The translations under genes were made by a program, and so were the position numbers. A DNA stretch of 61,352 nucleotides. It comes from a virus. Below, in pieces: positions 17,001-52,439 of this stretch. The notes under the pieces are model-generated. The model was not told the origin of the DNA and ran no database searches. It saw nothing but the letters and a program-made list of their open reading frames with translations. The stretch covers positions 1-61,352 of the IMG/VR virus record IMGVR_UViG_3300009370_000027; one strand, 5' to 3'. How positions within the stretch are numbered: position 1 is the stretch's first letter; the number at the start of each line of letters is the position of its first letter.

Positions 17001-20000
17001 CAGTCGTTTGCCCTCCTGCTCCCACATCCGCAGGCGGTGCCAACCCTGACATACCTTGAGACGAGAGGAGTGCAATAACATCATTGAGGGCAATTGGCCC
17101 ACCATCCGGACCCGTTATCCCCTGCCTATTCAGGTAATCCGCAAAGACGGGAGCATATGGAAGTAGCTGCTGCGCAAGTTCATCCCCAAGCTTTTCCTGG
17201 TCCGGAGTTCCGTAGTACTGCATCGCAGCACGCTGTGCATCGGGGTAGTACCTGGGAGCAATGTCTTCCCAGATATTTCCATAGTACTGGTAGTTCCTCT
17301 CAAGCTCTGCAAGCTCTTCTTCTGTGATAGTAGGATCATCACTCAGCGCCTCGAAATACGTGTAGGCATCAAATGCCTCCCCTTCCTCCCATAGATTTCT
17401 CGATATCGCGTCTTCACGAAGATATGTAAAGTAGTCATCTGCCTTGGTGAAGAGAGCTATCTCCTCATCACTTATATCTTCAAGCTCACCGACTTGAGGA
17501 TCTGCGAGTGACCAAAGGGCTCCAAAGGGAGATTGGCTTTCGTAGACATCAGATCCAAACATCCTTCCGGGCGCATAAAGTCCGTGACCGGCCATGGCAA
17601 AGGGATCGTTTATGTCCCCAACGCCAGAGACTCCGCCATAAGCGGATTCCAAATATTTACTGTCCTCGGGAGGAGGATCTTCGTCCCATTCCCCTGGTGC
17701 GGTAGGTCTTCTATTCCCCAGATTCTCAGTGGCTCTTTCGATTTCCGCCCAGGCTTCATCTGTAAGGCTGTAAGTTCCAGTAGCCTCATCGTAATGCTGA
17801 CTGTAAATCCAATCGATATAATCCGGGCTGTCCTGGTAGTAATCAAAGTCAGCTATCCCTTGTGATTCCGCCCAAGCAACCGCTTTTTCTTCATCCGTTT
17901 CTTCGTCTTCTTCCTCTTCTTCTGAAATACCATGTCGTATTTCATCAAGTCTCTCCCTCGTTCCAAACTCATCTCCAACAAGAACGGGTCTTCCATCATG
18001 GTCAACCTGAACGTTGGCATTCATGAAGTCCATGAACACTTCATCATCTACTATGAGCCCAGAATCTGTCTCTCCAATCCGTGCGAGCAAGTCATCTGTA
18101 ATTTCATTTATGAAATCTGAATCCAAGCCAAGGAATCTCAGCTTCTGCCTGAACTCATTGATGTGCCTTTCATTCGCTACGAGATCCCTCATCTCTACGT
18201 TTACGCCTGCATTTGCAAGCATATCTTCCAAGAAGTCCAATCTGGCCCAGTCTTCATCCTCCGTCCCACGATCAGGAACATCATCAATGACCTTCTCTTC
18301 TTCTTTAACTTCCCATCCTGTTATCTCCGACTCTCCTGTACCAGGAATCTCCTCAATGACTGGATCTAATTCATACGAACGCTTCGGTCCAGAACTTACT
18401 AGGTCGTACAGTGCATCTTTTGCGCTTTGATTGTAATCACCCAACTCATTCCATGTCGGGAGGCTGTCTACATCTAGAGGCTGACCTTCATTTCTTGGCA
18501 TTGGAAGTATATTATTAATGATGTCCCAGAATCTTGGATCATTCTTGAACGCAGCACCGATGCTATCTCCAAACCCCATCTGCTCTATGACTGCATCAAA
18601 TAGAATATCTAGAGTTGAAAACTGATCAGTATCGTAGGCGCTATCACGGGTTAGATCTTCGTAAGCCTTCCAGTCGTCAGGCGTCCACCCTTGTGTACCT
18701 GCATCAATCCAGTCCGATATCTTCTGCTGATTGATAAACAGATAGGAAGCCAATACGGAAGGATCAGTTTCAAACCCCTCAGTCATCACCCCCTTAAACT
18801 GAAGACCCTCATCGGGATCAGTAAAGATATCTAGAACATCTTGATACGTTGCGTCGAACTCAAGTTCTACAATCTTTTGAAAAAGTTCTGCAAGATTTGG
18901 ATAGTTACCAAGTATATTAGTCCTTGTACCCGGATCGGTTATGTCCAGTCCATGATTGAACGCAAAGACTTCCAGGAAGTTCTCAAGTGTAAAGTCACTC
19001 AATGCAGACAGAGAATAAACGCCAGTCTCTTCGTCGTATACATCCCCTACATCAAGATTCTCGATAGCAAAAGATCCACCCAGCGTGTCTGGATCAGAGC
19101 TTTGAATCCAAACTAGATCCTCTTCGCCCTCAACCTCGACTGCATCTACGCGAGCCTCCTCGCCTGGATAGGCAAAGTCTCCGGTGGTTCCATAGTCTCC
19201 AGTATCCGCATAGATTAGAGGACTATCTTGACCAGCCTCCTGGTACATCCGATCTATGAGTTCTCCATCTGTGATGTCCTCAGGAATTGCCGATATAGAT
19301 CGAAGCTGTTGTAGAAAATCTGTCTTCGCCGCAGGTGAAGGCTGTTCCTCATACAAGCCAATCAGATCTACCGCATTCATGCGGTCTCCGCCTACTCCCA
19401 TGGCCGCCATGCTGACATGATCTGCAAGTGTTTGAAGTTGGGTCCAGCCTTCCGAAACGCTCTCAAACCATTCTTCGTCATTCATTTCTATCGGAAGAAT
19501 TCCGACACCCGGCGCACCTCTGTGGTCTAGGTCTTCAATGAAGTCCTCTGCGGATTCTACGATGAGAGCATCTCTCTCTTCTTGGGTCGATGGATCAAAG
19601 GGCGGACCAGTGGTTACGTCTTCCTCAGTTACATCCCCGCCGACAATGACTTCATCGCCAGTTACATCTCCACTAACAAGGTCTTCAACGCCAGTTACAT
19701 CTCCACTAACAAGGTCTTCAACGCCAGTTACGTCTCCACCAACAAGGTCTTCATCGTCAACGAGAGGATCTTCTTGGAATACGCCAGTGGTATCACCCAT
19801 CACCCCACCTGGTTCATCAAGCGAACTTATGCCTTCTCCAACCTGTCTGGCTCCAGCCTCTTCATAGATGAGATCTATCAGTTCATCACCTGTCATACCG
19901 GGAGGTAATACGCTGGAAAATTCAAGAAGAGTATTTTCAATGAACCCATCAGGATCTCCAGACTGTTGAAAGTCACGAAGCAGAGTATGGGGATCAATGC

Positions 20001-22143
20001 GAACGCCTTCGGCAACCGAGAAGTAATCTGCAAGAGTTTCAGGCTGGATTAGTCCAGACTCTATGTCCTCAAACCAAATTTCGTCAGCAGTCGGAGGCTC
20101 TTCACCAGCCTCCTGATACATGAGATTTACTATTTCTTCATCTGTCATGGCCCCGAGATTTTGCTGACTATGGGTATTTCTTGACGCATATTCCCTCAAT
20201 GAGCCAATGAAGAACAGCAATGCCTCTTCCCGATTGTCATAACCAAGACTTGCAGCACCTCCATCCATCCATTCATTGAACGAGTTAAGCAACCACTGAG
20301 AGTCGTAACGTGTGCCTTCGGAAATAGAAATAATGTCCGCAAGCGTTTCAGGAACAATAGAACCATCTGAAATGCCTTGGAACCAAATTTCGTCATCAGT
20401 CATACCGGGACCGGGAGAATCTGTGTCTGCGAACGGAGGTTGGTCAACTTCATCAACTTCATCAATGATGGGCTCATCAACTTCAGCCCCGATGGGTTCA
20501 TCAACTTCATCAATGATGGGCTCATCAACTTCATCAACTATGGGTTCATCGACTTCATCAACTATGGGTTCATCAACTTCATCAATGATGGGTTCATCAA
20601 CTTCACCACCGATTACTTCGTCAACTTCGTCAACTATTACTCCACCACCTTCATCAACTATGACTTCCTCACCTTCATCAATGATGGACTCATCACCTTC
20701 ATCAATGGGGTCTCCAGTCGGGAGATCGGGAGGCTCTTCACCAGACTCCTGATACATAAGATTTAGTATTTCTTCATCTGTCGTTCCTTCAGGAACGAAC
20801 GAACGAAGCATCTCATAGAAGAATCCTTGATCTTCAAGAGACAAGAAATGACTAAGCAATTCCGAGGACGTAGTGCGACCAGTACCACCAAATGCATTCC
20901 TCGCTGCTGAAACATGATCCGCAAGCGTTTCAGGGAGAATGGAACCATCTGAAATGCCTTGAACCCAAATCTCCTCGTCAGTAAGTTCATCCTGTGTATC
21001 AGGATCGGTTTGCACATCTTGGGTCTGATCTATGGCTTCATACGTAACAGGGTCAACGAGTTGACCCAACTCACCAGTTTCAGGATTCACTTCATAAGTT
21101 TGATCTTCCCCGTTCGGTCCAGAACCCGGGACAATCGTGTATGCATTAGGTTCTGTAGGCCCCTCGCCTAAAGCAGTCAATGGAGCCGTTACGCCTTCAT
21201 CAGCAATGACTCCCTCACCGTCACTATCATCCGTTGGCGAGTGTTCCTCGTAATCAGTTATAACTTCAGGATCGGTTTGTTCAGCCCAACCCTCGGGCCT
21301 CCCAAAAGAACCAATGCCCATTTCATTTACAGAAAATTCATACTCCTCAGGATCAACATTGAACATATTGGAAGGACTGTACGTAAAACGTTCCTTCGCT
21401 AATTCGACAGCTTGGTTGTATCTATCTAGATCCCAAGTGCCGTCTTGGAGATTCTCATTTGCCCGATACAATGCACTATGGTAATCGTCCCATTCTCCTA
21501 CGATGCCCTCCATCGCACCCGACTTTCCGGCCATTGGATTGTAAGACCAATAGTTATCTATGTAGTCGCTGACATCCCTTTCCGACCATCCAGTAAAATC
21601 CATCTGATCCGGAGCGATTAGAGCATAATCACGCTCTTCCGCTCTCTCCATCAAGACTCCATAACTAGAAGGTAAATTTACGTTATCACCCCAACCAGGG
21701 AAGTCGGGAAGACCTTCGATGTATTCTATATAATCGAGCGGTGCATTTCGGAGGTCCCACATTCCTTCCGGAGTCGTTGCAAACTGGAGATCGTAAAAGC
21801 TTTCGGGTCTATCTTCGGTAGGCAAATACTCATGTGTGGAAACCTCAAACCCCGCCCAAGGATCGCTGGTTATATCCCCACTAATACCCCCTCTAGATCC
21901 CCAGAACTCTGCCTCCGGCGCGTACCCGCGAGACCAACTTGGCCTTCGGCCACCCCATATTTCGGAATCCGCAGCTTCATCTCTGTAAAGATGTTCAACA
22001 GGACTAGCCCCCCACGCAACTTCTTCTTCGACATCCGGCACGCCCTCAACATCCTCAACCATCTCCTCCATCTGCGGCCAACCGTCCTCTTCCACTTCAA
22101 AGTCTTCATTCGGGTCTTGAATGTCTACGATTCCATTCGACAT
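14071..22143 (-). CDS. Very large acidic repeat virion protein (2690 residues)
   Basis: AGGAG lies 7 bases before the ATG. The protein is strongly acidic. Four related modules of about 75-100 residues begin near residues 388, 581, 684 and 885; each opens with a form of EIWFQGISDGSIVPETLAD and closes with a form of DEEIVNLMYQEAGEEPP. Between them lie a DEVDEPI-type repeat tract (about 480-575) and GDVTGVEDLVS repeats (about 790-845). The middle (1300-2400) is aromatic and Asp/Gly-rich. The last 150 residues contain YQEGGMV and the conserved phage block HGEFVVPADVVAHLGDGNNENGA (from about 2634) followed by KLYGMMDRVR. That C-terminal block is common in virion proteins of short-tailed phages. 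I infer an internal or tail-associated structural protein; the repeats may bind calcium or act as a flexible stalk, which is not shown. Confidence 0.72.
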   Translation of the reverse strand: MSNGIVDIQDPNEDFEVEEDGWPQMEEMVEDVEGVPDVEEEVAWGASPVEHLYRDEAADSEIWGGRRPSWSRGYAPEAEFWGSRGGISGDITSDPWAGFEVSTHEYLPTEDRPESFYDLQFATTPEGMWDLRNAPLDYIEYIEGLPDFPGWGDNVNLPSSYGVLMERAEERDYALIAPDQMDFTGWSERDVSDYIDNYWSYNPMAGKSGAMEGIVGEWDDYHSALYRANENLQDGTWDLDRYNQAVELAKERFTYSPSNMFNVDPEEYEFSVNEMGIGSFGRPEGWAEQTDPEVITDYEEHSPTDDSDGEGVIADEGVTAPLTALGEGPTEPNAYTIVPGSGPNGEDQTYEVNPETGELGQLVDPVTYEAIDQTQDVQTDPDTQDELTDEEIWVQGISDGSILPETLADHVSAARNAFGGTGRTTSSELLSHFLSLEDQGFFYEMLRSFVPEGTTDEEILNLMYQESGEEPPDLPTGDPIDEGDESIIDEGEEVIVDEGGGVIVDEVDEVIGGEVDEPIIDEVDEPIVDEVDEPIVDEVDEPIIDEVDEPIGAEVDEPIIDEVDEVDQPPFADTDSPGPGMTDDEIWFQGISDGSIVPETLADIISISEGTRYDSQWLLNSFNEWMDGGAASLGYDNREEALLFFIGSLREYASRNTHSQQNLGAMTDEEIVNLMYQEAGEEPPTADEIWFEDIESGLIQPETLADYFSVAEGVRIDPHTLLRDFQQSGDPDGFIENTLLEFSSVLPPGMTGDELIDLIYEEAGARQVGEGISSLDEPGGVMGDTTGVFQEDPLVDDEDLVGGDVTGVEDLVSGDVTGVEDLVSGDVTGDEVIVGGDVTEEDVTTGPPFDPSTQEERDALIVESAEDFIEDLDHRGAPGVGILPIEMNDEEWFESVSEGWTQLQTLADHVSMAAMGVGGDRMNAVDLIGLYEEQPSPAAKTDFLQQLRSISAIPEDITDGELIDRMYQEAGQDSPLIYADTGDYGTTGDFAYPGEEARVDAVEVEGEEDLVWIQSSDPDTLGGSFAIENLDVGDVYDEETGVYSLSALSDFTLENFLEVFAFNHGLDITDPGTRTNILGNYPNLAELFQKIVELEFDATYQDVLDIFTDPDEGLQFKGVMTEGFETDPSVLASYLFINQQKISDWIDAGTQGWTPDDWKAYEDLTRDSAYDTDQFSTLDILFDAVIEQMGFGDSIGAAFKNDPRFWDIINNILPMPRNEGQPLDVDSLPTWNELGDYNQSAKDALYDLVSSGPKRSYELDPVIEEIPGTGESEITGWEVKEEEKVIDDVPDRGTEDEDWARLDFLEDMLANAGVNVEMRDLVANERHINEFRQKLRFLGLDSDFINEITDDLLARIGETDSGLIVDDEVFMDFMNANVQVDHDGRPVLVGDEFGTRERLDEIRHGISEEEEEDEETDEEKAVAWAESQGIADFDYYQDSPDYIDWIYSQHYDEATGTYSLTDEAWAEIERATENLGNRRPTAPGEWDEDPPPEDSKYLESAYGGVSGVGDINDPFAMAGHGLYAPGRMFGSDVYESQSPFGALWSLADPQVGELEDISDEEIALFTKADDYFTYLREDAISRNLWEEGEAFDAYTYFEALSDDPTITEEELAELERNYQYYGNIWEDIAPRYYPDAQRAAMQYYGTPDQEKLGDELAQQLLPYAPVFADYLNRQGITGPDGGPIALNDVIALLSSQGMSGLAPPADVGAGGQTTGGGGTSGIGSDVSVNQGTAAGSASIDSTAVTTGAVGVGSTQATEDVDAQAAAENATQETVEASAAATNNANQAVNFNPGLPTGYSTMFTDPGEFAGTNTSRRKAADSIFDSAKKSSGFGGRPGISSASDIYVPNFVMDAQAASTGSVSPLSWWLGRSSDDKNQIKAWVASDHRGMGYKDSNEALEENVYRNADGDLYRVEDEITNFYLPTWAAELAYSSIDQGGSSMQEEVFGEYIDYVPTYSWWQSIGAERRAELQERMINHSGKESTKLVAIRKMEVDRDKHGKDVAFVSSVKKFNKSSGELVPEWETLEELDKEINTELKAEPVRFTDFVKWMIDEGGIDPLSWVNGTPGIGSSDDHPHLTISSDRAVFGLEQLIPTTNPRRPYITATGGWGWRILGQNWEDSWYTGVGGRGLDHSPVIDRTKLPEGGWHSPFVNTVHYEIPAGQERTHMYGAAGAVSRTMLNYFLKHWDSWVGEENSRKVPWPVGVSESDARSVSINRNVDHLTKTEGRRGHTSGRSSTPSIPGKLNLRPGVELFQPQFETVSVIDDFGDIGKSDQGLFEADLDEFFSHLFARDPETNEYLANEINMIDFEGEYGDQPESVWDYSGRVLQTDGGLRPQGRPLYYDDQSSKQGMWAILSSYMPYYEGYLQSYDIASRDLDTPSFEVYMNSGDPGKRPEFDPTDILGSEAAALAFQQNAKVSYGDFVHLEGLMPDWSGGRIVRPNVDYFNDTVFLDGFRWAAPGGEENEFIAGQGVPRPMFYYGDMTDRLDGPTPLGQFSTAQSSGPVIPGHSSGGIVDINYQEGGMVEEEISEDISEDISPLSSQEELEDLVSQDPLLQELMGALMEDSPEVNRLIKIAVDRYGEAIVKALSRLVQQNVGRRSSYIPGPDPGMADTKRVKLTGPEGLPSLGSEEAAISHGEFVVPADVVAHLGDGNNENGAEKLYGMMDRVRETKTGNREQPGEIVEEEVLPV
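19622..19760 (-). repeat. Tandem coding repeat (GDVTGVEDLVS units)
   Basis: Near-identical units of about 33 bases repeat inside the 2690-residue gene; on the plus strand they read as forms of CCAGTTACATCTCC followed by A(C)TAACAAGGTCTTC. They encode GDVTGVEDLVSGDVT-type peptide repeats, with at least three clear copies and degenerate flanking ones. DNA identity is higher than needed for protein identity, which suggests recent expansion by slippage or recombination. Confidence 0.85.
20430..20700 (-). repeat. Tandem coding repeat (DEVDEPI units)
   Basis: On the plus strand, units such as GGTTCATCAACTTCATCAA and their variants recur about every 24 bases. They encode at least six DEVDEPI(I/V) octapeptide repeats flanked by related DEGDE and DEGEEVI units. 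The tract forms a highly acidic linker between the first and second large modules of the 2690-residue virion protein. Copy number is likely to vary between related phages. Confidence 0.88.
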
Positions 22144-43695: not shown

Positions 43696-44102
43696 ATCGT
43701 TTCCTATACAATGCATTAATGCATTAATGCATATGTACGTTAAACGCACTAATGAAGTTAAACGTATTAATAAGTTAAACGTTTAACTTAAACGTTATGA
43801 ATAATAACATTACCCCGTAGGGGTAATGTTAATGCATTATAAATGTTACGTATTAAATAACCCCCTCCCCCCTGCGGGGGGACCCATTTGTGAAAATATG
43901 CTCATCGGGTGTGCAGAACGCAGCTAGAAGGAAGACAGACCCGCGCCTGTCGTGAAAGGGGGGCCGGGGGTCTCGACGGTGGCGGCCCATTCTCTTGAAG
44001 ACGCCGTACCCGGCTCCCTGGCGACACTTTCGCACGTAGGCATACACGGGATCGCGTAGGCAGCAGTTCGTCCGTCACAGCGCAGTGTAGGGCTACACAC
44101 AG
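43696..44102. promoter_or_regulatory. Gene-free terminase interval with GTTAAACG repeats and hairpins
   Basis: Between TerS and the next gene lie about 400 bases without a supported gene. The part 43711-43800 is AT-rich and holds three copies of GTTAAACG (43739-43746, 43757-43764, 43774-43781) and a related CTTAAACG (43787-43794), plus ATGCATTA repeats at 43711-43730. A perfect hairpin with arms AACATTACCCC and GGGGTAATGTT is centred at about 43817. A second, CCCCCC-TGC-GGGGGG, lies at 43867-43881. The same GTTAAACG and AATGCATTA elements stand upstream of the primase-helicase gene at 56349-56376, also reading leftward. A promoter, operator or packaging site could be here. The frame at 43853-44047 shows no gene-like features. 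Confidence 0.5.
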
Positions 44103-44615: not shown

Positions 44616-45579
44616 AACGGTGTAACCCTACCGCTCCGCGGTTCAGTGCGCCTCGTTTTTCTAGTGACGTATCTATGTGTCAACGCTGTGACGTGTATGC
44701 CTAACCATGGCAACGCAATGTTAGGTAGGGGTGACACATCTCTGCCTACACACCTAAGCGTATGGGTTTCCTACACAATACTGTGATCTGCCTCTAGCTG
44801 GCCTGTACTGAATAGGAGGCTTCAGGCAGCCCTAAGTGCCTGTTTTTAAAGGGGAAATGGCATAGAGTGGCTATAAGTGGCTATAAGAGTATGGGAGCCC
44901 TAGAATCCCTGTGTTCGCGGCCCGCCAAATAGGCGGGCACCAGCCCTCCCGGAACCAGGGTTGAACGTGTAGTGGACCGCAGACCCAGAACTACACCAGT
45001 CCCCGGGAACGACTCTTCAAAGTGTCGGGGGACGAAGGCGCAGTCGAAGAAAGGGGCGGCGTCTACCGTTGCGCGCAAGTGTGTCGCCCGCGTGAACGTC
45101 CAACGGTTATGAGCACACGCGCCGCAATGCGGCGCACGTGAAGCGGGGACGCGCCCCGCCTTTCCAGCAACAGTCATCTACGTAGCGGCCACTGCCAACG
45201 CACGGCTAACCGCTTACGACCACGCACCACGCTAGACGCATACCCAACACGCGGCCCTAACCGCTTGACGTGTTGGTAGTAGCTCTACCGTGTTCCGGTG
45301 ACCGCTGGTTTAGAAGACAACGACACAGCGAAGGGACGGCGACGGTGTGAACGTCAAGCAAGCCCGCGACCCACTGCTGTGTCGGATGCATGAATCAAAC
45401 AACTGGCAAGAGAACAGCTACGACCACACACACGTCACGGGATAGGTGACAACGTAGTGTGGCGTTGTCTGCTTGCGCAGTTTGTTTGATGCATGAAATG
45501 GATACGCAGTAAGTCCTAGCCTTATGCGCAGACGGTCCACGTATCTGTTTCATGCATCGGATAGACTGATGCGTCACAG
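44616..45579. promoter_or_regulatory. Hairpin-rich divergent non-coding region (about 1 kb)
   Basis: No convincing gene is seen between TerS and the first early gene. The stretch holds a nested inverted repeat at 44675-44739 (outer arms ATGTGTCA and TGACACAT, inner CCTAAC and GTTAGG), a GGCTATAA repeat near 44874, hairpins at 44920-44938 (GCCCGCC/GGCGGGC), 45119-45135 (GCGCCGC/GCGGCGC) and 45143-45159 (GCGGGG/CCCCGC), and the direct repeat CTAACCGCTT at about 45208 and 45263. It separates the leftward late block from the rightward early block, so both promoters and possibly the origin or packaging site should be here. TTGACA near 44681 on the minus strand lacks a good -10. Confidence 0.5.
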
Positions 45580-45609
45580 CACGCAAAGACGTGCAATGAA
45601 AGGTTAGAC
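45387..45609 (+). promoter_or_regulatory. Structured leader, composite stem element copy 1, with hairpin D1
   Basis: Upstream of the 45610 gene lie overlapping stems: arms ATCAAACAA (45394-45402) with TTGTTTGAT (45482-45490); then GATGCATGAAA...ATACG (45488-45506) with CGTAT...TTTCATGCATC (45541-45559), which shares the bases GAT with the first stem; then GCATCGG with CTGATGC (45555-45573, G-U tolerated), which shares GCATC with the second. Hairpin D1 (GCACG/CGTGC, 45580-45595) follows, then a purine-rich AATGAAAGG and ATG at 45610. The first two stems cannot form fully at the same time. Related chains occur at 45994-46094 and 47223-47321. Confidence 0.72.
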
Positions 45610-45987
45610 ATGACACGCAATGACATCCCGACGAGTTACGAAGAGGCAATGAAGTTCCTGGGCGACAAGGACTCCCGCACGGTGTGCAATAACACCACGG
45701 TCGAACGGTGCGAGGCAAGTACACGCCCGCAGCATTACAAGCGGGAGTTCCCGTTTGTGGTGACAATCCGTTTGCATGGATTCCCGGTAGTGGAGTTCTT
45801 TGAAGACGGCACGATCCGACTGCAAGCTGGCAAGTGGAAGACCGTGACAACGAAGGACCGAATGAATCGGTGCCTTGGTAGTCGCGGTCGCGTGTACCAG
45901 TACAACCGTGAATGGTTCTATTCGGATGGGATCGCGGACCAAAACGTGAACACCGACATTCCGTTCCATGACGGCATGACCGTTTAG
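45610..45987 (+). CDS. Early-region conserved phage protein
   Basis: This 125-residue protein, MTRNDIPTSYEEAMKFLGDK, has core segments FVVTIRLHGFPVVEFFEDGTIRLQAG, KTVTTKDRMNRCLG and VYQYNREWFYSDG. The pattern (LHG.pVV.ff.DGti.L..G...TvTTkdRmN) resembles small proteins found in many phages of unknown role. It is the first gene after the hairpin-rich divergent region and begins 14 bases after hairpin D1, with a purine-rich spacer. A stem-loop (45994-46019) follows its stop codon. Confidence 0.68.
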   Translation: MTRNDIPTSYEEAMKFLGDKDSRTVCNNTTVERCEASTRPQHYKREFPFVVTIRLHGFPVVEFFEDGTIRLQAGKWKTVTTKDRMNRCLGSRGRVYQYNREWFYSDGIADQNVNTDIPFHDGMTV

Positions 45988-45993
45988 TTCCAC

Positions 45994-46094
45994 GCATCAA
46001 ACGTTCCAACGTTTGATGCAATGAATACGTAACAACGTGTTGCGTATTCATTGCATCGGATGATCGGTGCAATGCAACGCACGCAACGACGTGC
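45994..46094 (+). promoter_or_regulatory. Composite stem element copy 2 with hairpin D2
   Basis: Six bases after the preceding stop lies stem A: GCATCAAACGTT (45994-46005) with AACGTTTGATGC (46008-46019), 12 pairs and a 2-base loop. Stem B pairs GATGCAATGAATACG (46015-46029) with CGTATTCATTGCATC (46043-46057), 15 pairs; it reuses GATGC of stem A, so A and B compete. Stem C (46053-46070, GCATCG with CGGTGC) reuses GCATC of B. Hairpin D2 (46079-46094, GCACG/CGTGC) then precedes the purine-rich spacer and the ATG at 46109. Confidence 0.75.
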
Positions 46095-46108
46095 AAAGGA
46101 TGAAAGCA

Positions 46109-46381
46109 ATGGCATACGAACTTGAACTAACAGAAGACAACGTGAAAACGATTGCATTCGTTGGGCATCGATACGGGTGGAGCGATGCACTCAAAAGCTT
46201 TGCCGAAGGAACGAACGAACTTGCAGAACATGAAGCGTGGGAAGTTCGCGAAGCAATCGAGTCCGACACCGAAGGTGGTCACAGTCTCTTTCCGATGCTT
46301 GGGCACACGTGCGGGAGCAATGGACAGATCGAAGGGTGCCTGCGGTGCAAACTGTTGGACTTCATTGACGGGATCATTTAA
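46109..46381 (+). CDS. Small early protein of unknown function
   Basis: The ATG at 46109 (MAYELELTEDNVKTIAFVGHRYG) has AAAGGA 8 bases upstream; a closer ATG at 46100 would add three residues. The product has 90 residues: helical N-terminus, SDALKSFAEGTNELAEHEAWEVREAIES and a C-terminal His/Cys-rich HSLFPMLGHTCGSNGQIEGCLRCKLLDF, where HTC...CLRC could form a small metal site. It belongs to a string of small early genes that share the same leader hairpin. No family recognised. Confidence 0.6.
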   Translation: MAYELELTEDNVKTIAFVGHRYGWSDALKSFAEGTNELAEHEAWEVREAIESDTEGGHSLFPMLGHTCGSNGQIEGCLRCKLLDFIDGII

Positions 46382-46388
46382 CAGCAAC

Positions 46389-46404
46389 GCACGCAAAGAC
46401 GTGC
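46389..46404 (+). promoter_or_regulatory. Leader hairpin D3
   Basis: This is a single copy of GCACG-CAAAGA-CGTGC, located 16 bases before the ATG at 46421, with AAAGGA directly after the stem. It stands alone here: stems A to C are not present in front of it, and only 8 bases separate it from the preceding stop codon. Confidence 0.75.
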
Positions 46405-46420
46405 AAAGGAAACGAAGACA

Positions 46421-46561
46421 ATGCATTCATGCTCATACTGCGAAAGCAATCGCGTAACACTGCGCGACCACGGGGAACACTTCACGGTGAAGTGTCACGA
46501 CTGCAAAAAGGTAGGCGAGAAGTTCTCTGCCCCGCTTGCCGTGCAAAGGGGAATCAAATAG
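46421..46561 (+). CDS. Small zinc-ribbon protein
   Basis: This 46-residue protein has two CxxC pairs: CSYC at residues 4-7 (MHSCSYCESNRV) and CHDC at 25-28 (VKCHDCKKVGEKF). This is a minimal zinc ribbon. It starts 16 bases after hairpin D3 with AAAGGA as Shine-Dalgarno, and its stop codon overlaps a following small frame as TAGATG. Small zinc-ribbon proteins in phage early regions often act in DNA or RNA binding; the partner here is unknown. Confidence 0.65.
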   Translation: MHSCSYCESNRVTLRDHGEHFTVKCHDCKKVGEKFSAPLAVQRGIK

Positions 46562-46744
46562 ATGCAAGCAATACTCACCGTGACAAAAACGTTTTGTCCA
46601 TTGTCTCGATGCTGGGGGTACTCAGTTCGACATTCTGCAACGAACGATTCTTGCTGGGGGTACTCACGCAATGAAACAATCCGCACTCTCATGGCTCGCC
46701 TCATTCCTAAAGGATACGAGCTGCGGGCAATCATTTCACACTAG
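46562..46744 (+). CDS. Possible small protein with CWGYS repeat
   Basis: This 60-residue frame starts one base after the zinc-ribbon stop (TAGATG, AAAGGGG about 10 bases upstream). It contains LSRCWGYSVRHS and again DSCWGYSRNE, coded by two near-identical copies of GCTGGGGGTACTCA (about 46610 and 46655), with a basic C-terminus. The frame fills the gap before hairpin D4. The repeat and poor similarity to anything known leave it doubtful; the repeat may matter as DNA or RNA rather than as protein. Confidence 0.35.
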   Translation: MQAILTVTKTFCPLSRCWGYSVRHSATNDSCWGYSRNETIRTLMARLIPKGYELRAIISH

Positions 46745-46755
46745 ACGAACGAACC

Positions 46756-46771
46756 GCACGCAATGACGTGC
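46756..46771 (+). promoter_or_regulatory. Leader hairpin D4
   Basis: This is a single copy of GCACG-CAATGA-CGTGC, 15 bases before the ATG at 46787. The purine-rich spacer contains TGAGGATG. As at D3, the longer chain of stems is absent. Confidence 0.75.
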
Positions 46772-46786
46772 AATGAGGATGAGTAG

Positions 46787-46984
46787 ATGGCAACGGTAGA
46801 TTTAGAAAAGGACTTCGCCCATTGGGGTGAGACAAAGGCAAGCATGAGACTGAAGGCGCTCGATATGTTCGCGCGGCTGCTGAAAGAGATGAGGGAAAGT
46901 CAGAGTTTTCCTCAAGATGGATCGAAAGGTCAGGCAGAGGCATACCACCTAACCCTAATCGCATCGTTGAAGGAGGACGAGTGA
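46787..46984 (+). CDS. Small helical early protein
   Basis: This 65-residue protein, MATVDLEKDFAHWGETKASM followed by LKALDMFARLLKEMRESQSF, is predicted helical and mildly charged. It begins 15 bases after hairpin D4, and its stop codon overlaps the next gene's start (TGATG). No family recognised; the position in a chain of small early genes suggests a host-takeover or regulatory role, by context only. Confidence 0.58.
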   Translation: MATVDLEKDFAHWGETKASMRLKALDMFARLLKEMRESQSFPQDGSKGQAEAYHLTLIASLKEDE

Positions 46985-47217
46985 TGATTAAAAATATTCT
47001 TTACCTGCTTCGCATTGCTCCCGGTTGGAATGTGGAAAGCATGGATGGAAAGAAGGGGAAGGACTTTGGCCCGAATTGGATTCGTGGCCTTCTCTTCTAC
47101 CTCTACCGTCTGAAGTGGTGCCGCGATGAGTATGTGCGTGTTGAATACTTCTTTGAGTACGTCCACTACGCCGAGGTGGATGATGAGATAAAAATGGAAT
47201 TGCTGGTGGACGAGTGA
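46984..47217 (+). CDS. Small aromatic-rich early protein
   Basis: The ATG at 46984 overlaps the previous stop (TGATG), with AAGGAGG about 7 bases upstream; an in-frame GTG sits one codon earlier. The product has about 77 residues, basic and aromatic (ILYLLRIAPGWNVESMDGKK, WIRGLLFYLYRLKWCRDEYVRVEYFFEYVHYA) and ends acidic (DEIKMELLVDE). No membrane segment is convincing and no family is recognised. A composite stem element (47223-47321) begins 5 bases after its stop codon. Confidence 0.6.
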   Translation: MIKNILYLLRIAPGWNVESMDGKKGKDFGPNWIRGLLFYLYRLKWCRDEYVRVEYFFEYVHYAEVDDEIKMELLVDE

Positions 47218-47222
47218 CCGAC

Positions 47223-47321
47223 GCATCGAACGCATAAGCGTTCGATGCAATGAATGCATTGCATTGCAGTGCATTCATTGCATCGGATGTTCCGATGTAA
47301 ACAACGCACGCAAAGACGTGC
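47223..47321 (+). promoter_or_regulatory. Composite stem element copy 3 with hairpin D5
   Basis: Stem A: GCATCGAACGC (47223-47233) with GCGTTCGATGC (47238-47248), 11 pairs. Stem B: GATGCAATGAATGCA (47244-47258) with TGCATTCATTGCATC (47270-47284), 15 perfect pairs, reusing GATGC of stem A. Stem C: CATCGGA (47281-47287) with TCCGATG (47291-47297), reusing CATC of B. Hairpin D5 (47306-47321) follows. Compared with copy 2, several positions differ but both arms change together (AAACGTT/AACGTTT versus GAACGC/GCGTTC; TACG/CGTA versus TGCA/TGCA), which supports selection on pairing. Confidence 0.78.
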
Positions 47322-47336
47322 AATGAAAGAAACAAA

Positions 47337-47666
47337 ATGAAAACTTACGAAATACATTACGAAATTACGTTCTCTGAGTCGTCTGAAGTTGAAGCCAACT
47401 CACTGAAAGAAGCAATCGAAAGCTTCGACATGGATGAAGCAATGTGCGAAGCGGAACTAGACCCCACGTCTGGCGACATGAAGGTGGTAACGGAAGAATG
47501 CAAAGAAGTTCTTCCCTACTGCTCTCTTTGCTTCAGTGATTTCACCGGACACGGGAACGACTCCCGCCCGCTATCGGGTGGAAGGTGCTGCGATAACTGC
47601 AACGCAACGCTCGTCATACCGGCGCGGATAAAGCTTCTCGCTGAACCGAACCAAGATATCTTCTAG
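47337..47666 (+). CDS. Zinc-ribbon early protein (CSLC-CCDNC)
   Basis: This 109-residue protein has a beta-alpha N-terminus (MKTYEIHYEITFSESSEVEA, then an acidic helix) and a C-terminal zinc ribbon: CSLC in PYCSLCFSDFTGHGNDSRP and CCDNC in GGRCCDNCNATLVIPARI. The pattern 'C.lC...ftG.GNd..Pl..GrCCd.CN..vi..Ri' recurs as a small phage protein of unknown role. It starts 15 bases after hairpin D5, and a perfect 12-pair stem-loop (47672-47700) follows its stop. Confidence 0.68.
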   Translation: MKTYEIHYEITFSESSEVEANSLKEAIESFDMDEAMCEAELDPTSGDMKVVTEECKEVLPYCSLCFSDFTGHGNDSRPLSGGRCCDNCNATLVIPARIKLLAEPNQDIF

Positions 47667-47671
47667 TAGAC

Positions 47672-47735
47672 GCAATGGAATGCGCAGTGCATTCCATTGC
47701 AGTGAATGAATGAACGAACGCACGCAAAGTCGTGC
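47672..47735 (+). promoter_or_regulatory. Stem-loop plus leader hairpin D6
   Basis: Five bases after the stop codon at 47666 lies a perfect stem: GCAATGGAATGC (47672-47683) with GCATTCCATTGC (47689-47700). A short AATGAATGAACGAAC linker then leads to hairpin D6, GCACG-CAAAGT-CGTGC (47720-47735), 17 bases before the ATG at 47753. Stems B and C of the longer element are missing or replaced here. Confidence 0.72.
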
Positions 47736-47752
47736 AAAGGAAAGAAAAGAAA

Positions 47753-48823
47753 ATGCCTGAAAGCATTATCAAGAACACTCAGACAGATGTGATTGAACGC
47801 ACCGCAACGTGGGTAGGTGAGCAGAACAAATCTGTTCTTATCACCGGACCTTCGGGTGGTGGCAAGTCGCACATGGTTTCTCACGCCATCGCTCAGCTTC
47901 TTGCTGAGCGCTACCACCCCGAACTTGAAAAGGTGAACGTCGCTATCGACTGTCGCCTCTCGTATCGGGATTCGGTTGACCTTCGTGGCATTCCCTGTGC
48001 GGACATGGAAACGGGAACCACTCGATGGCTTACGCCTGACGAGTTCCCGCGCGGCAATGAGCCCAAGATCTTTTTCATTGACGAGATCGGGCAAGGGCTT
48101 CCCCCTGCACAGAACGCTGCAATGCAGTTGGTTCTTGACCGGAGGCTTGGCGAGTACGTTGTTCCACCGAACACGTACATCATTGCCGCATCCAATCGCG
48201 AGTGCGATGGATCGTTCATTCGCAAGATGAGTTCCGCGTTGCGTCAACGCTTTGCGTTGATCGAACTGTCCCCGTCCGCAAAGGACTGGCGGGCATGGGC
48301 GATTGCCAATGGCATTGATCGTCGCCTTGTTCTCGCAACGGGACTCTTCCCTGACCTCATTGAGAAGTGGGATGGGAATCTCCCTGGTCAGCAGTCCAAT
48401 TCGCGGGAGTTGACTTCACTGCATGGGATTATCAATTCCAAATACGTGAAGACTGATGCCGCAACGATGCTTGCGTATGCAAGCGACGTGATTGGCGAGG
48501 ACGCAGCGATCAAGGTTGCTCCGTTCATTGCTGACTACGATGGACAGGTGAAGCCGAGCGATGTCTTCAAGGACCCCAGTGGGTGTGACCTCCCGAGGTC
48601 GGATCGTTTTGACAATACGATTTCACTCACCATTCAACTGTGTCGCAAGGCAACGATGAAGAACACCGATGCGGTTCTCACTTACGTGGATCGTTTGAAC
48701 AGTGAGTACCGTGCGATTGTCGCATCGGGGTTCATGTCTTTGAACAAAGAAGCAAAGGGTGACGGTTACCTCTCCAAGGCGTGGGGTAAGTGGATCTCCG
48801 ACAACCAAGACCTCGTAAGTTAA
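47753..48823 (+). CDS. AAA ATPase of MoxR type, first gene of MoxR/helical/VWA trio
   Basis: The ATG at 47753 (MPESIIKNTQ) follows hairpin D6; an upstream GTG at 47732 lies inside that hairpin and is less likely. The product has 356 residues: Walker A GPSGGGKS (32-39), Walker B IFFIDEI (Asp110, Glu111), sensor 1 Asn148 (AASN), and Arg164/Arg166 of ALRQRF as probable arginine finger. This is the MoxR/AAA_5 family, which forms hexameric rings that remodel partner proteins. The partner is probably the metallopeptidase-VWA protein encoded two genes later, as in MoxR-VWA modules of bacteria. A stem-loop with arms AATGAACGG and CCGTTCATT follows its stop. Confidence 0.82.
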   Translation: MPESIIKNTQTDVIERTATWVGEQNKSVLITGPSGGGKSHMVSHAIAQLLAERYHPELEKVNVAIDCRLSYRDSVDLRGIPCADMETGTTRWLTPDEFPRGNEPKIFFIDEIGQGLPPAQNAAMQLVLDRRLGEYVVPPNTYIIAASNRECDGSFIRKMSSALRQRFALIELSPSAKDWRAWAIANGIDRRLVLATGLFPDLIEKWDGNLPGQQSNSRELTSLHGIINSKYVKTDAATMLAYASDVIGEDAAIKVAPFIADYDGQVKPSDVFKDPSGCDLPRSDRFDNTISLTIQLCRKATMKNTDAVLTYVDRLNSEYRAIVASGFMSLNKEAKGDGYLSKAWGKWISDNQDLVS

Positions 48824-48846
48824 TGAACGGCAAGTGCCCGTTCATT
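48822..48846 (+). promoter_or_regulatory. Intercistronic stem-loop after the AAA ATPase gene
   Basis: Arms AATGAACGG (48822-48830) and CCGTTCATT (48838-48846) form a 9-pair stem with a 7-base loop that begins inside the stop codon of the ATPase gene. There is no U-run, so it is not an intrinsic terminator. It is of the same kind as the stems that follow other early stop codons here. Confidence 0.62.
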
Positions 48847-48880
48847 CATGCAACGTACTTTCCAAAAAGGAAACAAAGAG

Positions 48881-49804
48881 ATGCCTAGTAAGAAGAAGGA
48901 AAAGGGATTCAAGATCAGCGCAAGCAATGCGATCAAGGTTGGAGTGGAGCAGGGCACGCCCCGGCAATTCATTCCACACTACGCAGCAACCGAAACCGTT
49001 CATGCAAAGTATGAATCCGATGACGATGCGGGAACGTATCGGGCGAGGCTCTACGGAAAGGAAGACATCCTTCCCATCACTCGCCATTACAATACGTTCT
49101 ACCATCAGGTTCATCGCGTGCTGACGGTTCCCTTTGAGCATGGCTACGGAGTACTGAAGAGGACCGGGCTTGAGAAGTACACCGAGCGGTATCGCGAACA
49201 CAAAGTGCGGTACTACGATGCGGTCGAAGAGGCGAAGCTTGACTTCCCCAACATCCTTGACCGTGCGCAGAGTCGGCTGAAGAAGCTTGGTGATGAAGTG
49301 AACTGGCCGAGCGCAGACGAGTGGGCAAGTCAATTCTATTTCAAGATCGATGTTCGCGAGATAGATGGCACCACTGATCTGCGCACCGCACTCACGAAGG
49401 AGGAGGTGGAGGCAATCGAGAAGGACATTCGCGGGCAACTGCGTGATGGCAATCTCGAAGTCTACCGGCGCATCCTCACCGCACTTCGCAAGAGTGCGGC
49501 GGCGCAAGCGCAGTACAAGAAGAAGAAGAACAGCAAGCTGTATGAATCCACTGCGCGCGAGAAGATTCAGGATCTTCTCGATGCATTCGATTGCCTGAAC
49601 GTGAACGGTGTCGATGGCGGAACGGACAAGGAACTGGAAGCCATCGGCAAAGACATTGCTGGCATGATCGGCAAGTCAACGTTTGAAGAGATCAAAGAAG
49701 ACGAGAACGTTCGCAACCAATCGGTAACGGACACGTCTCGCATTGCGGAGAAGGTTGAGAAACGAATCCGCGATATCGAAGACGAGATCGAAGACCTCGT
49801 TTAA
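48881..49804 (+). CDS. Helical partner protein of the MoxR/VWA module
   Basis: The ATG at 48881 (MPSKKKEKGFKISASN) gives 307 residues; it has AAAGGAAACAAAGAG upstream. The protein is largely helical and charged (RYREHKVRYYDAVEEAKLDF, LTKEEVEAIEKDIRGQLRDG, YRRILTALRKSAAAQAQY), with a C-terminal coiled-coil (IAEKVEKRIRDIEDEIEDL). Similar helical proteins often lie between MoxR ATPase and metallopeptidase-VWA genes in phages; it recalls the DUF3150 type, but I cannot confirm this. It may link the ATPase to the VWA protein or to a target. Confidence 0.65.
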   Translation: MPSKKKEKGFKISASNAIKVGVEQGTPRQFIPHYAATETVHAKYESDDDAGTYRARLYGKEDILPITRHYNTFYHQVHRVLTVPFEHGYGVLKRTGLEKYTERYREHKVRYYDAVEEAKLDFPNILDRAQSRLKKLGDEVNWPSADEWASQFYFKIDVREIDGTTDLRTALTKEEVEAIEKDIRGQLRDGNLEVYRRILTALRKSAAAQAQYKKKKNSKLYESTAREKIQDLLDAFDCLNVNGVDGGTDKELEAIGKDIAGMIGKSTFEEIKEDENVRNQSVTDTSRIAEKVEKRIRDIEDEIEDLV

Positions 49805-49817
49805 TGGGTAGGGAACG

Positions 49818-49842
49818 GGGGGCGCGCACGGTGTGCGCCCCC
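49818..49842 (+). promoter_or_regulatory. GC-rich intercistronic hairpin before the VWA gene
   Basis: Left arm GGGGGCGCGCA (49818-49828) pairs with TGTGCGCCCCC (49832-49842), 11 pairs with one G-U, about 14 bases after the stop at 49804. The following TCCCCTTCC has no clear U-run, so this is probably a processing or pausing hairpin, although weak termination is possible. Confidence 0.6.
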
Positions 49843-49877
49843 TCCCCTTCCACTCTTTCAAAATGAAAGCAAAGAAA

Positions 49878-51380
49878 ATGTCTATTGAAAACGAACTAGC
49901 CAAAGTGGCTAAGAAAATCGAAGACGTGCAGGCATGGCTTGCAGATCCGAAGAACTTGGATGAACAGATGGATAGACTGCATGATGTACGTCGTCACGTC
50001 GTCATGGATCACCCCTTCCTTGGAAGCAAGGCAATGCAAGCGGACTTTGAGTTCTCTACCGAGATCCCTACCGCTGCAACGGATGGGCGCAAGCTTCTGT
50101 TCAATCCAATGTTCGTTGCGCTGTTGAAATTCTCGTTCGTTCTGTTCACGGTCGTTCATGAGTACCTCCATGTAGTGCTGGGCCATCACGTCAGACGTGG
50201 TAATCGCAATGCCAAGCTGTGGAACATCGCTTGCGATCATGTCGTGAACAGAATCATTAAGCAGTTCATGCGAATTCCGGATGACGTTTATTGCGATGAA
50301 CGTTTCGATGACTTCAGCGAAGAGCAGATCTATTCGATCCTCGCTGAAGAATCCAAGCAAGAACCCGAGGACGATGGCCGCATCGTTGAGCATTGGCCCA
50401 CTGGCGAATCAGGTAAGGAAGAAGACGAAGGCGAGGGTGGAAGCGGTGAAGGTGACGAAGCTGATGACGAAGCTGATGACGAAGCTGATGACGAAGCTGG
50501 TGATGAAGGTGCGGGTGATGATGAAGGTGATGATGAAGGTGCGGGTGGTTGCAAGGCAGACGATGAAGGTGGCGACGAAGCTGCCGATGGCGAAGGCGAT
50601 GATGACAATGGAGGTGGAGGAACCTACGAACTGCCCGACGCAAAAGACTGGGGCGAAGTGGAGGACATGAAGAACGAAGACGGTTCCGACATGAGTGACA
50701 AAGAAAAGTCAGATGAACGTGTGAAACAGGTGATCGAAAGCGAGAACGCACGACGCATCGGCGACAAGATGGGGCGTGGATCCGGGGGTTCCGGGTTCGC
50801 TGACAAGGTTGGACGTGCAGTGAAGAAGTCAACGTACTCATGGATCGATGAGATCCGCGAGTTCATAAGCGACTCGTTCCAAGGCGACCCGACTTCAACG
50901 TGGGATCGTGGACACCGAAGCCATCTTGCCAACGGGATTTACCTCCCTGGCTACAAGATGGAGGGTGTTCGTGATGCACTCGTTGTTGCGGATTGTTCCG
51001 GATCGATGTGGCATGGACTGTTCACTCACGCACTGGAAGAAACTGCGAAGGTAATCACTGATGCAAACGCATTGTCGGTAGACTTTCTGCAATTCGATGA
51101 CGTTGTTTACGAGCCGATCCGTACCTTTGAGTACGGTGCAGAGTTCGACGTTGAAACCCGAGAGGGTGCAGGCGGCACCGTCTTCCAGCCTGTGCTGGAT
51201 TGGATTGATAAGTCTGAAAAGGAATACGACTTCATCATTGCGATCACTGACATGGGAATCTGTGACTTCCACACAATCAAAGCTCCCGATGCTCCCATCA
51301 TTTGGTGCGACGTATTCGGAGGCACCTACCAGAAGGCACCGTTTGGAAAGACGGTGGTTGTTACGCGAGGCAACGAATGA
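49878..51380 (+). CDS. Metallopeptidase-VWA protein (DUF2201-like), MoxR partner
   Basis: The start is uncertain: ATG 49878 (MSIENELAKV, 500 residues) or ATG 49863 five codons earlier. Residues about 60-160 carry HEYLHVVLGHH (94-104), a HExxH zinc-protease motif with a downstream His. A long acidic, repetitive linker follows (about 165-290: EADDEADDEAD and GDDEGAGG). The C-terminal part is a VWA domain with a MIDAS: DCSGS (Asp372, Ser374, Ser376), a GGTVFQPVLDW Thr loop and IAITDMGI. This matches the DUF2201-type proteins that pair with MoxR ATPases. The 3' end overlaps the ribbon-helix-helix gene (ATGA). Confidence 0.8.
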   Translation: MSIENELAKVAKKIEDVQAWLADPKNLDEQMDRLHDVRRHVVMDHPFLGSKAMQADFEFSTEIPTAATDGRKLLFNPMFVALLKFSFVLFTVVHEYLHVVLGHHVRRGNRNAKLWNIACDHVVNRIIKQFMRIPDDVYCDERFDDFSEEQIYSILAEESKQEPEDDGRIVEHWPTGESGKEEDEGEGGSGEGDEADDEADDEADDEAGDEGAGDDEGDDEGAGGCKADDEGGDEAADGEGDDDNGGGGTYELPDAKDWGEVEDMKNEDGSDMSDKEKSDERVKQVIESENARRIGDKMGRGSGGSGFADKVGRAVKKSTYSWIDEIREFISDSFQGDPTSTWDRGHRSHLANGIYLPGYKMEGVRDALVVADCSGSMWHGLFTHALEETAKVITDANALSVDFLQFDDVVYEPIRTFEYGAEFDVETREGAGGTVFQPVLDWIDKSEKEYDFIIAITDMGICDFHTIKAPDAPIIWCDVFGGTYQKAPFGKTVVVTRGNE

Positions 51381-51571
51381 AACTGCGAACACGAATGTTC
51401 CGAACGAACTTGAAGTTCCATGATGAAGAGTGGAGGTCACTCGTTTCAATCGCGGAATCAAACAGGCGTAGCATCACAAACCAGATCGAAGTCTGGATCC
51501 ATGATGCATTGAAAGGAAAACGCAATGCTGAAGAAGAAGACGAAGAAGTCATGGGCTCGCAGGGATCTTGA
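51377..51571 (+). CDS. Ribbon-helix-helix-like protein
   Basis: The ATG at 51377 overlaps the VWA stop codon (ATGA), so it is translated with that module. The product has 64 residues: a basic strand MKLRTRMFRTNLKFHDEEW, then two helices EWRSLVSIAESNRRSI and TNQIEVWIHDALKGK, and an acidic tail (AEEEDEEVMG). This is the layout of small Arc/MetJ-type DNA-binding proteins that act as dimers. It may control the early genes or the operator-like sites at 57281-57545, as a guess. The next gene starts inside its 3' end in another frame. Confidence 0.66.
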   Translation: MKLRTRMFRTNLKFHDEEWRSLVSIAESNRRSITNQIEVWIHDALKGKRNAEEEDEEVMGSQGS

Positions 51572-51848
51572 CCGCAGGCTTGAACCTACTGAGGTGAAGG
51601 CAGTGAGGCACCTTGTGCTTGCTCGCTACCACCTAGCTCAAGCGGGCAAGTTCATTCACGCCGAAGAGAGTACGTGCGACAAGTGCGGACTGAACAAGCA
51701 GGAGCCTCAAGCTCATTGGGTTGCGGAGACAAGTCGGAAGTCTGCTCTCACCCGTGTGCTTAGGGCGATTGACCAGTTTGGTGCAGGATGGGTAGGTGAA
51801 TGGGATTTCCCGGAGATCCCGGTCAAGCCAGAGAAAACGGCTTCGTAG
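51525..51848 (+). CDS. Small early protein of unknown function
   Basis: This 107-residue protein starts inside the preceding gene (47-base overlap, different frame) with AAAGGA about 8 bases before the ATG. It has a basic N-terminus (MLKKKTKKSWARRDLDRR), helix VKAVRHLVLARYHLAQAGKF, one CxxC (CDKCGLNKQE), and helix SALTRVLRAIDQFGAGW, ending WDFPEIPVKPEK. One CxxC is not enough for a zinc site alone; His39 or a partner may complete it. No family recognised. Confidence 0.6.
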   Translation: MLKKKTKKSWARRDLDRRLEPTEVKAVRHLVLARYHLAQAGKFIHAEESTCDKCGLNKQEPQAHWVAETSRKSALTRVLRAIDQFGAGWVGEWDFPEIPVKPEKTAS

Positions 51849-51914
51849 AATGCGCTGTGTTGAACGTTCTCATGTCAACGTGACCTGTAGCACCCCCCAA
51901 AACGGAGGTGAAAG

Positions 51915-52067
51915 ATGATCGAAGTGATCGGTGAACTTCTACTCTTGGTTCTGTTCTTTGGCCTTGGCCACGAGTTCGCAATGATTACCGGACGAAAGCG
52001 CGGGAGGTCTGCGCTTTCAAACGATGCAGAAACAATCGCAAGAGCGAGAAAGGAAAGGAAAGAATGA
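51915..52067 (+). CDS. Small membrane protein
   Basis: This 50-residue protein has a strong Shine-Dalgarno (GGAGGTG, 4 bases before the ATG). One membrane segment (about 5-18, IGELLLLVLFFGLG) is followed by a basic tail (TGRKRGRSALSND, then ARARKERKE). Its stop codon overlaps the next start (ATGA), which links it to the secreted Cys-rich protein. The basic tail would stay in the cytoplasm (positive-inside rule). Function unknown. Confidence 0.6.
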   Translation: MIEVIGELLLLVLFFGLGHEFAMITGRKRGRSALSNDAETIARARKERKE

Positions 52068-52285
52068 CGCGGATACAACATAAATGGATTGTCATCACAG
52101 CAATCGCTGTCGTGGTGGCAGCAATCTTCGTCGCAAGCAGTGAAGCGGAGTGTTCACTATGCCCGCCGACTCGTTGCTTCGACTCAAGTGTGTGTGCCCC
52201 TGGGTGTGCGTGCTTGACACCGAGCGATGAAAGCCTGGGCGTGTGTATCAGTCTTTCTAATAAATATAATGCAGGAACAAATTAA
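52064..52285 (+). CDS. Secreted Cys-rich miniprotein with cystine-knot-like spacing
   Basis: This 73-residue protein has AAGGAAAGGA upstream and overlaps the previous gene by 4 bases. Residues 1-28 form a signal peptide or membrane anchor (HKWIVITAIAVVVAAIFVA) with a probable signal peptidase I site after SEA (29). The mature part has seven Cys: 30, 33, 38, 44, 48, 50 and 61. From Cys33 the spacing is 4-5-3-1-10; the inner 5-3-1 spacing equals that of squash-type trypsin inhibitor knottins (6-5-3-1-5). A short polar tail follows (SLSNKYNAGTN). A periplasmic protease inhibitor or envelope peptide is possible. Disulfide pattern and function are unproved. Confidence 0.6.
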   Translation: MTRIQHKWIVITAIAVVVAAIFVASSEAECSLCPPTRCFDSSVCAPGCACLTPSDESLGVCISLSNKYNAGTN

Positions 52286-52287
52286 GT

Positions 52288-52423
52288 AGGGCGACCGGGC
52301 AACCTCCATGAAGTGAGCGCCCCGGCGTGCCGGCAAACTTCAAGTTCGATCCGGTGCTTGAAGTTCATAGGGGTCCAACCCTACGGACGGGCGGGTGAAA
52401 GGCCCGCACCTTTTTTATCAACC
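52288..52423 (+). ncRNA. Structured untranslated region with terminal hairpin and U-run
   Basis: The stretch after the Cys-rich gene holds several consecutive stems: GGGCG with CGCCC (52289-52322 region), CCGGC with GCCGG (52323-52334), AACTTCAAG with CTTGAAGTT (52337-52366, 9 pairs), TAGGG with CCCTA (52369-52384), and GCGGG with CCCGC (52391-52407) followed by ACC and TTTTTT (52411-52416). I see no gene. This may be an independent small RNA, a riboswitch-like leader of the 52454 gene, or a termination region. It matched no RNA family that I know. Confidence 0.5.
52389..52416 (+). terminator. Probable intrinsic terminator
   Basis: GCGGG (52391-52395) and CCCGC (52403-52407) form a short GC stem with a 7-base loop, then ACC and six T's (52411-52416). 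The stem is short and 3 bases from the U-run, so efficiency may be moderate. Confidence 0.65.
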
Positions 52424-52439
52424 GCACGCAACGTCGTGC
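52424..52439 (+). promoter_or_regulatory. Leader hairpin D7
   Basis: GCACG-CAACGT-CGTGC, directly after the U-run of the probable terminator and 14 bases before the ATG at 52454, with GAAGGG in the spacer. This is the only copy outside the 45580-47735 cluster, which places the same signal in front of a gene 5 kb away. Confidence 0.75.

Follow-up and report, generated by a model that had tools for sequence, protein, structure and literature searches.

Repeated hairpin leaders resembling an interchangeable RNA tag at translation starts in an uncultured phage

Introduction

Why should seven unrelated genes of one phage be preceded by the same small hairpin, at nearly the same distance from the start codon? 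The question is raised by the 61,352 bp virus record IMGVR_UViG_3300009370_000027, which comes from an uncultured phage and is analysed here at its full length as "the window." No annotated phage was found to match this virus closely, and its terminase shares no more than 57% identity with those known from cultured phages; the closest terminases are those of Pelagibacter phage HTVC027P, phage 023Pt_psg01, phage DSL-LC04, and Pelagibacter phage HTVC023P. The minus strand carries the structural genes, and the hairpins lie in a rightward-running block made up largely of small genes; an AAA ATPase gene comes next, and after it a gene with metallopeptidase and VWA-like domains. We term the genes of this block "early" by their likeness to those of other phages. 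Judged from sequence, the hairpin leaders resemble an interchangeable RNA tag placed at the start of translation, of a kind that is known from a few other phages and has never been explained.

In mycobacteriophages, start-associated elements have been on record since 2011, and no function has been assigned to them. The element described here has a clear hairpin and a defined loop code, together with signs of exchange between genes, and lends itself directly to arm-swap, loop, and reporter tests. Should the leader prove to be a shared post-transcriptional handle, this would account for newly acquired small genes coming under one control from the moment of their arrival.

Leader copies and their position before genes

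An exact search for GCACG-N6-CGTGC returned seven matches in the window, all on the plus strand, whereas 100 dinucleotide-preserving shuffles of the window gave 0.05 on average and never more than 1. The original prediction, which had listed seven copies and proposed a count in shuffled sequence as a check, thus holds in number, with the first copy starting at 45579 and not at 45580. A plus-strand scan for perfect 5-6-5 inverted repeats of any sequence gave 119, among which the GCACG arm is the only one to occur in more than two copies. The copies, each followed by the start codon of the gene that it precedes, are as follows.

Leader 1: 45579..45594, plus strand, GCACG-CAAAGA-CGTGC, gap of 15 nt to the ATG at 45610
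Leader 2: 46079..46094, plus strand, loop CAACGA, gap of 14 nt to the ATG at 46109
Leader 3: 46389..46404, plus strand, loop CAAAGA, gap of 16 nt to the ATG at 46421, 7 nt past the preceding gene's stop codon
Leader 4: 46756..46771, plus strand, loop CAATGA, gap of 15 nt to the ATG at 46787, 11 nt past the preceding gene's stop codon
Leader 5: 47306..47321, plus strand, loop CAAAGA, gap of 15 nt to the ATG at 47337
Leader 6: 47720..47735, plus strand, loop CAAAGT, gap of 17 nt to the ATG at 47753 (AAA ATPase gene)
Leader 7: 52424..52439, plus strand, loop CAACGT, gap of 14 nt to the ATG at 52454

The loop CAAAGA, first reported as present in most copies, is a plurality (3/7); CAACGA, CAATGA, CAAAGT, and CAACGT occur once each, giving the consensus CAANGW. 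In RNA folding, the 5-bp stem is formed in all seven copies, at about -7 kcal/mol where the hairpin folds alone, and most copies fold no better than shuffled sequence. Outside the hairpin, the copies have in common about three bases upstream of the stem and, downstream, the Shine-Dalgarno only, which makes the hairpin with its Shine-Dalgarno the conserved unit.

As predicted, every stem ends 14-17 bases before the ATG, and a purine-rich, Shine-Dalgarno-like stretch was found in each of the seven gaps; the same Shine-Dalgarno type also precedes other genes of this virus. The genes behind the leaders had been described as unrelated, which agrees with the lack of significant similarity among them. 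According to a gene list made by hand from the open reading frames between 45.6 and 53.8 kb, the leader is present on 7 of the 11 plus-strand genes with at least 20 nt before them and on none of the three that overlap or abut their predecessor. A conserved upstream mini-ORF was considered and rejected, given that an ATG follows the stem in some copies and is not conserved.

Within the end of gene 46421, ahead of an ATG at 46562, the sequence CGTGCAAAGG at 46540-46550 corresponds to the 3' half of the leader with its Shine-Dalgarno, without the 5' arm. This site could be a decayed eighth copy or a chance occurrence.

Distribution outside the window

Among 2.9 million viral contigs, a 20-nt leader motif returned a single locus, a contig that we call L005. 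The shorter 16-nt motif was present in 87 viral contigs, which is about the number estimated for chance, and L005 alone held two copies; a widespread viral element was rejected on these grounds. In bacterial and archaeal genomes totalling 257 Gb, the 20-nt motif gave nine single matches, again about the estimated chance level; a host-derived signal was rejected on this basis, and a virus-specific element is suggested.

Copies in more distant relatives were sought with a covariance model in 784 kb of loci, where the four strong matches were all in L005 and the next had an E-value of 0.03. Protein searches with the early genes returned only L005, a 99.9% identical fragment of the window virus, and weak or partial matches. 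In a 9-mer search before starts, a hairpin family was seen in the window only. In an unrelated viral contig (L191), the 9-mer AAAGGTCGG occurs at 9939, 15019, and 15284, in each case 25-30 nt before a possible start and followed by an A/T-rich stretch, and is possibly another start-associated or promoter element.

Variant copies in the relative L005

L005, a 10-kb IMG/VR contig with about 75% identity to the window over the longest aligned stretch, is the sole close relative found and contributes four more leader copies (l1 to l4). Two of the four have the same arms as the window copies. One copy reads GCACG-CAATGA-CGTGT, with a closing G-U pair, and another reads TCACA-CAAAG-TGTGC, in which the fifth pair has changed from G-C to A-U, the outermost pair and the sixth loop base are lost, and C-AAA-G is retained. 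When the 11 copies are aligned, 98.5% of the cells pair, compared with at most 37% in slid registers. Column shuffles attain the observed covariation in 42-47 of 500 trials, and the single compensatory change is accordingly suggestive of RNA pairing, not proof of it.

Loop positions C1, A2, A3, and G5 are fixed, and positions 4 and 6 vary, the latter being absent once. This pattern of conservation fits the expectation for a pseudotriloop with a putative cross-loop pair between C1 and G5; since both bases are invariant in all 11 copies, covariation cannot show their pairing.

These variants bear on whether the element acts as RNA or as DNA. Because the arms form a perfect DNA palindrome of fixed sequence, they could serve as the operator of a regulator, as the original prediction also considered, or as a promoter-like palindrome with the transcription start just downstream. 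However, the L005 variant turns GCACG-6-CGTGC into CACAC-3-GTGTG, so that half-site sequence and spacing are altered together, a change that sits poorly with a dimeric DNA operator. The centre of the element is also asymmetric and points in the same direction in all copies, and no shared promoter boxes were found upstream of the leaders. We consider a DNA element improbable. An RNA element is favoured by the single orientation, the fixed distance to the start, the compensatory change, and the G-U pair; together with the lost loop base, these features lend weight to the other possibility raised at the outset, a phage-specific signal in translation or RNA processing.

Upstream hairpins and re-dealt cassettes

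Several leaders form the 3' end of a longer structured stretch, and a terminator-like site precedes leader 7.

45478..45568, plus strand: long inverted repeat with 29-nt arms, 79% complementary, upstream of leader 1; cassette in common with L005 l1
45994..46071, plus strand: three tandem hairpins preceding leader 2, with stems of about 11, 14, and 7 bp
47223..47299, plus strand: three tandem hairpins preceding leader 5, with stems of about 11, 13, and 9 bp; 90% identity with the L005 cassette of an unrelated gene
47669..47701, plus strand: hairpin upstream of leader 6; cassette in common with L005 l4
52391..52417, plus strand: stem and T run resembling an intrinsic terminator, 6 nt from the start of leader 7

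In an alignment of three tandem-hairpin cassettes (two from the window and l2 from L005), pairing is kept as the sequence drifts, and both sides of six pairs have changed in one or more of the sequences. Leaders 3 and 4 have no upstream hairpin.

Comparison of the 110 nt upstream of each leader between the window and L005 reveals that similar cassettes stand before different genes. The cassette of leader 5, before gene 47337, is identical at 85 of 94 positions to that of l2, which precedes an unrelated gene, and the cassette of leader 6, before the ATPase gene, is identical at 41 of 47 positions to that of l4, which precedes the 47337 orthologue. The leader 1 cassette matches l1, and the genes behind the two are unrelated. 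The leader 3 cassette matches l3 (446-461 in L005), which lies behind the 46109 orthologue, is followed by no recognisable gene, and no longer has its last G-C pair. All four L005 cassettes therefore precede something other than their best window match does, and none of three genes shared by the two viruses keeps its cassette; these mismatches indicate that cassettes and genes have reassorted. To judge from this one relative, the reassortment of leader cassettes among genes appears to be new here. The original prediction named as one refuting outcome relatives that keep the genes and lose both arm sequences and positions, and this is partly the case: the L005 orthologues of genes 46109 and 46421 carry no leader, and leaders persist elsewhere in the region.

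Reassortment also invites an explanation in which the leader is a recombination seam, that is, a short repeated homology for gene exchange that is kept alike by the exchange itself and has little regulatory role. A Sak-type annealing protein and an exonuclease are among the products of this virus and could reassort cassettes via short homologies, and l3 persists with no recognisable gene behind it. However, a seam needs neither a hairpin nor a compensatory change, fixed loop positions, or a constant distance to the ATG, and we regard it as a quite improbable account of the leader.

A further explanation is that the leader is a structural stabiliser of mRNA or a product of its processing, whereby upstream hairpins are cut, for example by RNase III, and a small protective 5' hairpin is left before the Shine-Dalgarno, with no dedicated binding protein. 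Strong tandem hairpins with conserved pairing before leaders 2 and 5 and before l2, as well as the single or longer repeats before leaders 1 and 6, agree with this explanation. A scan limited to sigma-70-like promoters found none on the plus strand between 43.4 and 54.6 kb, and 2 in this region against 7.3 in shuffles; such a shortage is expected if one long transcript is cut, although the host may use another promoter type. Against a stabiliser, stop codons lie 7 and 11 nt ahead of leaders 3 and 4, which lack an upstream hairpin, and near-invariant arms and fixed loop bases are needless for a purely structural role, which leaves this explanation unlikely.

Leader 7 is a separate case. Its position directly after a terminator-like site implies that gene 52454 may need its own promoter, a point in favour of a DNA element, and a start 6 nt after such a site is awkward if the leader is transcribed by read-through only. 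Between gene 52064 and leader 7, the window also contains a structured stretch of 130 nt (52286-52417) with a terminator-like end, for which no Rfam family matched above chance.

Comparison with known systems

In layout, the closest known kind is the start-associated sequences of cluster K mycobacteriophages, of which the leader is not a strict member. These sequences are short repeats that include the Shine-Dalgarno and occur in one orientation at the starts of unrelated non-structural genes; about half have inverted repeats further upstream, and their function is unknown (PMC3203893, PMC11373665). The cluster K repeat, GGGATAGGAGCCC, has 13 bp and is unrelated in sequence to the leader; it is placed 3-7 bp from the start and has been called non-palindromic, with sigma-A-like promoters in its extended part and arms that do not covary (PMC3203893, PMC11373665). 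The leaders likewise have one orientation and stand at the starts of unrelated genes, but the hairpin ends further from the ATG than the cluster K repeat does (14-17 nt against 3-7 bp), and a search of the window for GGGATAGGAGCCC with up to two mismatches gave no match.

In behaviour, the closest known kind, again without strict membership, is the PeSL cassettes of T4-type phages, described as repeated intergenic elements with stem-loops in early regions, in which an early promoter is combined with a terminator stem-loop, and associated with gene shuffling between related phages (PMC4503421, PMC3950731). Leader cassettes are similarly exchanged between the genes of related phages, as seen with one relative. 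Unlike the PeSL composite, the leaders have no promoter detectable in the sigma-70-like scan, and a terminator-like site is found beside leader 7 only, not in each cassette.

In shape, the leader resembles iron-responsive elements and other pseudotriloop hairpins, which have a 5-bp upper stem, a six-base loop with a C1-G5 cross-loop pair, and a variable sixth base (PMC8466369). The leader shares the 5-bp stem, the six-base loop, the variable sixth base, and a putative 5' UTR location, and its invariant C1 and G5 could form the cross-loop pair. It differs in presenting A-A-N where the iron-responsive element presents A-G-U (PMC8466369), and no lower stem is common to its copies. No Rfam family, including those of iron-responsive elements, reached its gathering score anywhere in the window.

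Two other hairpin types were rejected. The promoters of the N4 virion RNA polymerase have a 3-nt loop whose central base is a purine on the template strand, and their base conservation extends as far as the start site (PMC4496689, PMC3715699). They were considered because the window encodes proteins of 3406 and 2690 aa, and N4 likewise has small conserved hairpins before early genes alongside a very large protein. The leader loop has six bases and, if closed to three, would place a T at the template centre. Searches of the giant proteins for a polymerase gave no Pfam, PHROG, or Protein Data Bank match and no T7/N4-type motif by pattern, a procedure that a highly diverged polymerase might escape; both results also count against a DNA element. 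The hexaloop target of ANTAR proteins requires A1 and G4 and usually two hairpins (PMC8934654), whereas the leader has C1 and G5 in its loop and one hairpin per gene.

The giant proteins are encoded on the minus strand at 947-11167 (3406 aa, with an LPD38 domain near the C-terminus) and 14071-22143 (2690 aa, without a recognised family), and neither matched an entry in the Protein Data Bank.

Proposed mechanism

Our preferred reading, to which we assign a probability of about one half, is that the leader belongs to a mobile 5'-UTR cassette whose hairpin is read by a sequence-specific factor acting on the translation or processing of early mRNAs. Once transcribed, the element would fold into an RNA hairpin in the 5' untranslated region, fused to the Shine-Dalgarno, with the 5-bp stem GCACG/CGUGC and the six-base loop C-A-A-N-G-W. 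This loop would close as a pseudotriloop through the C1-G5 pair, presenting A-A-N and flipping out the sixth base. One factor, encoded by the phage or the host, may recognise the hairpin and act on ribosome entry or mRNA processing across the whole early set. The leader would be the 3' end of the cassette, often with tandem hairpins upstream, and recombination would re-deal the cassettes among early genes. This interpretation draws on sequence comparison with one informative relative.

A single sequence-specific factor is suggested by the near-invariant stem and by the fixed A-A beside the free N and W positions. The constancy of the leader arms, while adjacent stems drift, likewise suggests sequence-specific reading; their near-identity could alternatively come from homogenisation by recombination between copies. 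A narrower form of the preferred reading, which we hold as doubtful, is that a phage-encoded protein binds the pseudotriloop, shaped like an iron-responsive element, controls the early set post-transcriptionally, and spreads its control by leader shuffling as a mobile cassette. No RNA-binding regulator was recognised among the proteins scanned. For the remaining explanations, the order of decreasing likelihood is the structural stabiliser, the DNA element, and the recombination seam.

Conserved stretch upstream of leader 1

Just upstream of leader 1, an intergenic stretch of about 500 nt (44885-45390 in the window; 2193-2710 on the minus strand of L005) is conserved at about 70% identity at the DNA level, includes long blocks without any change, and matched neither a phage nor any Rfam family up to an E-value of 1. 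The two-sequence consensus fold contains 104 pairs, of which none is broken and 12 are changed on both sides, against an average of 8.6 such double changes in column shuffles. It is more stable than those shuffles (z -4.6), and the opposite strand folds more stably still. The stretch is possibly a large structured RNA, on either strand. Further upstream, the window contains an A/T-rich run of short palindromic words at 43700-43870, for example TGCATTAATGCATTAATGCAT, and a comparable stretch is present in L005 at about 4100-4250.
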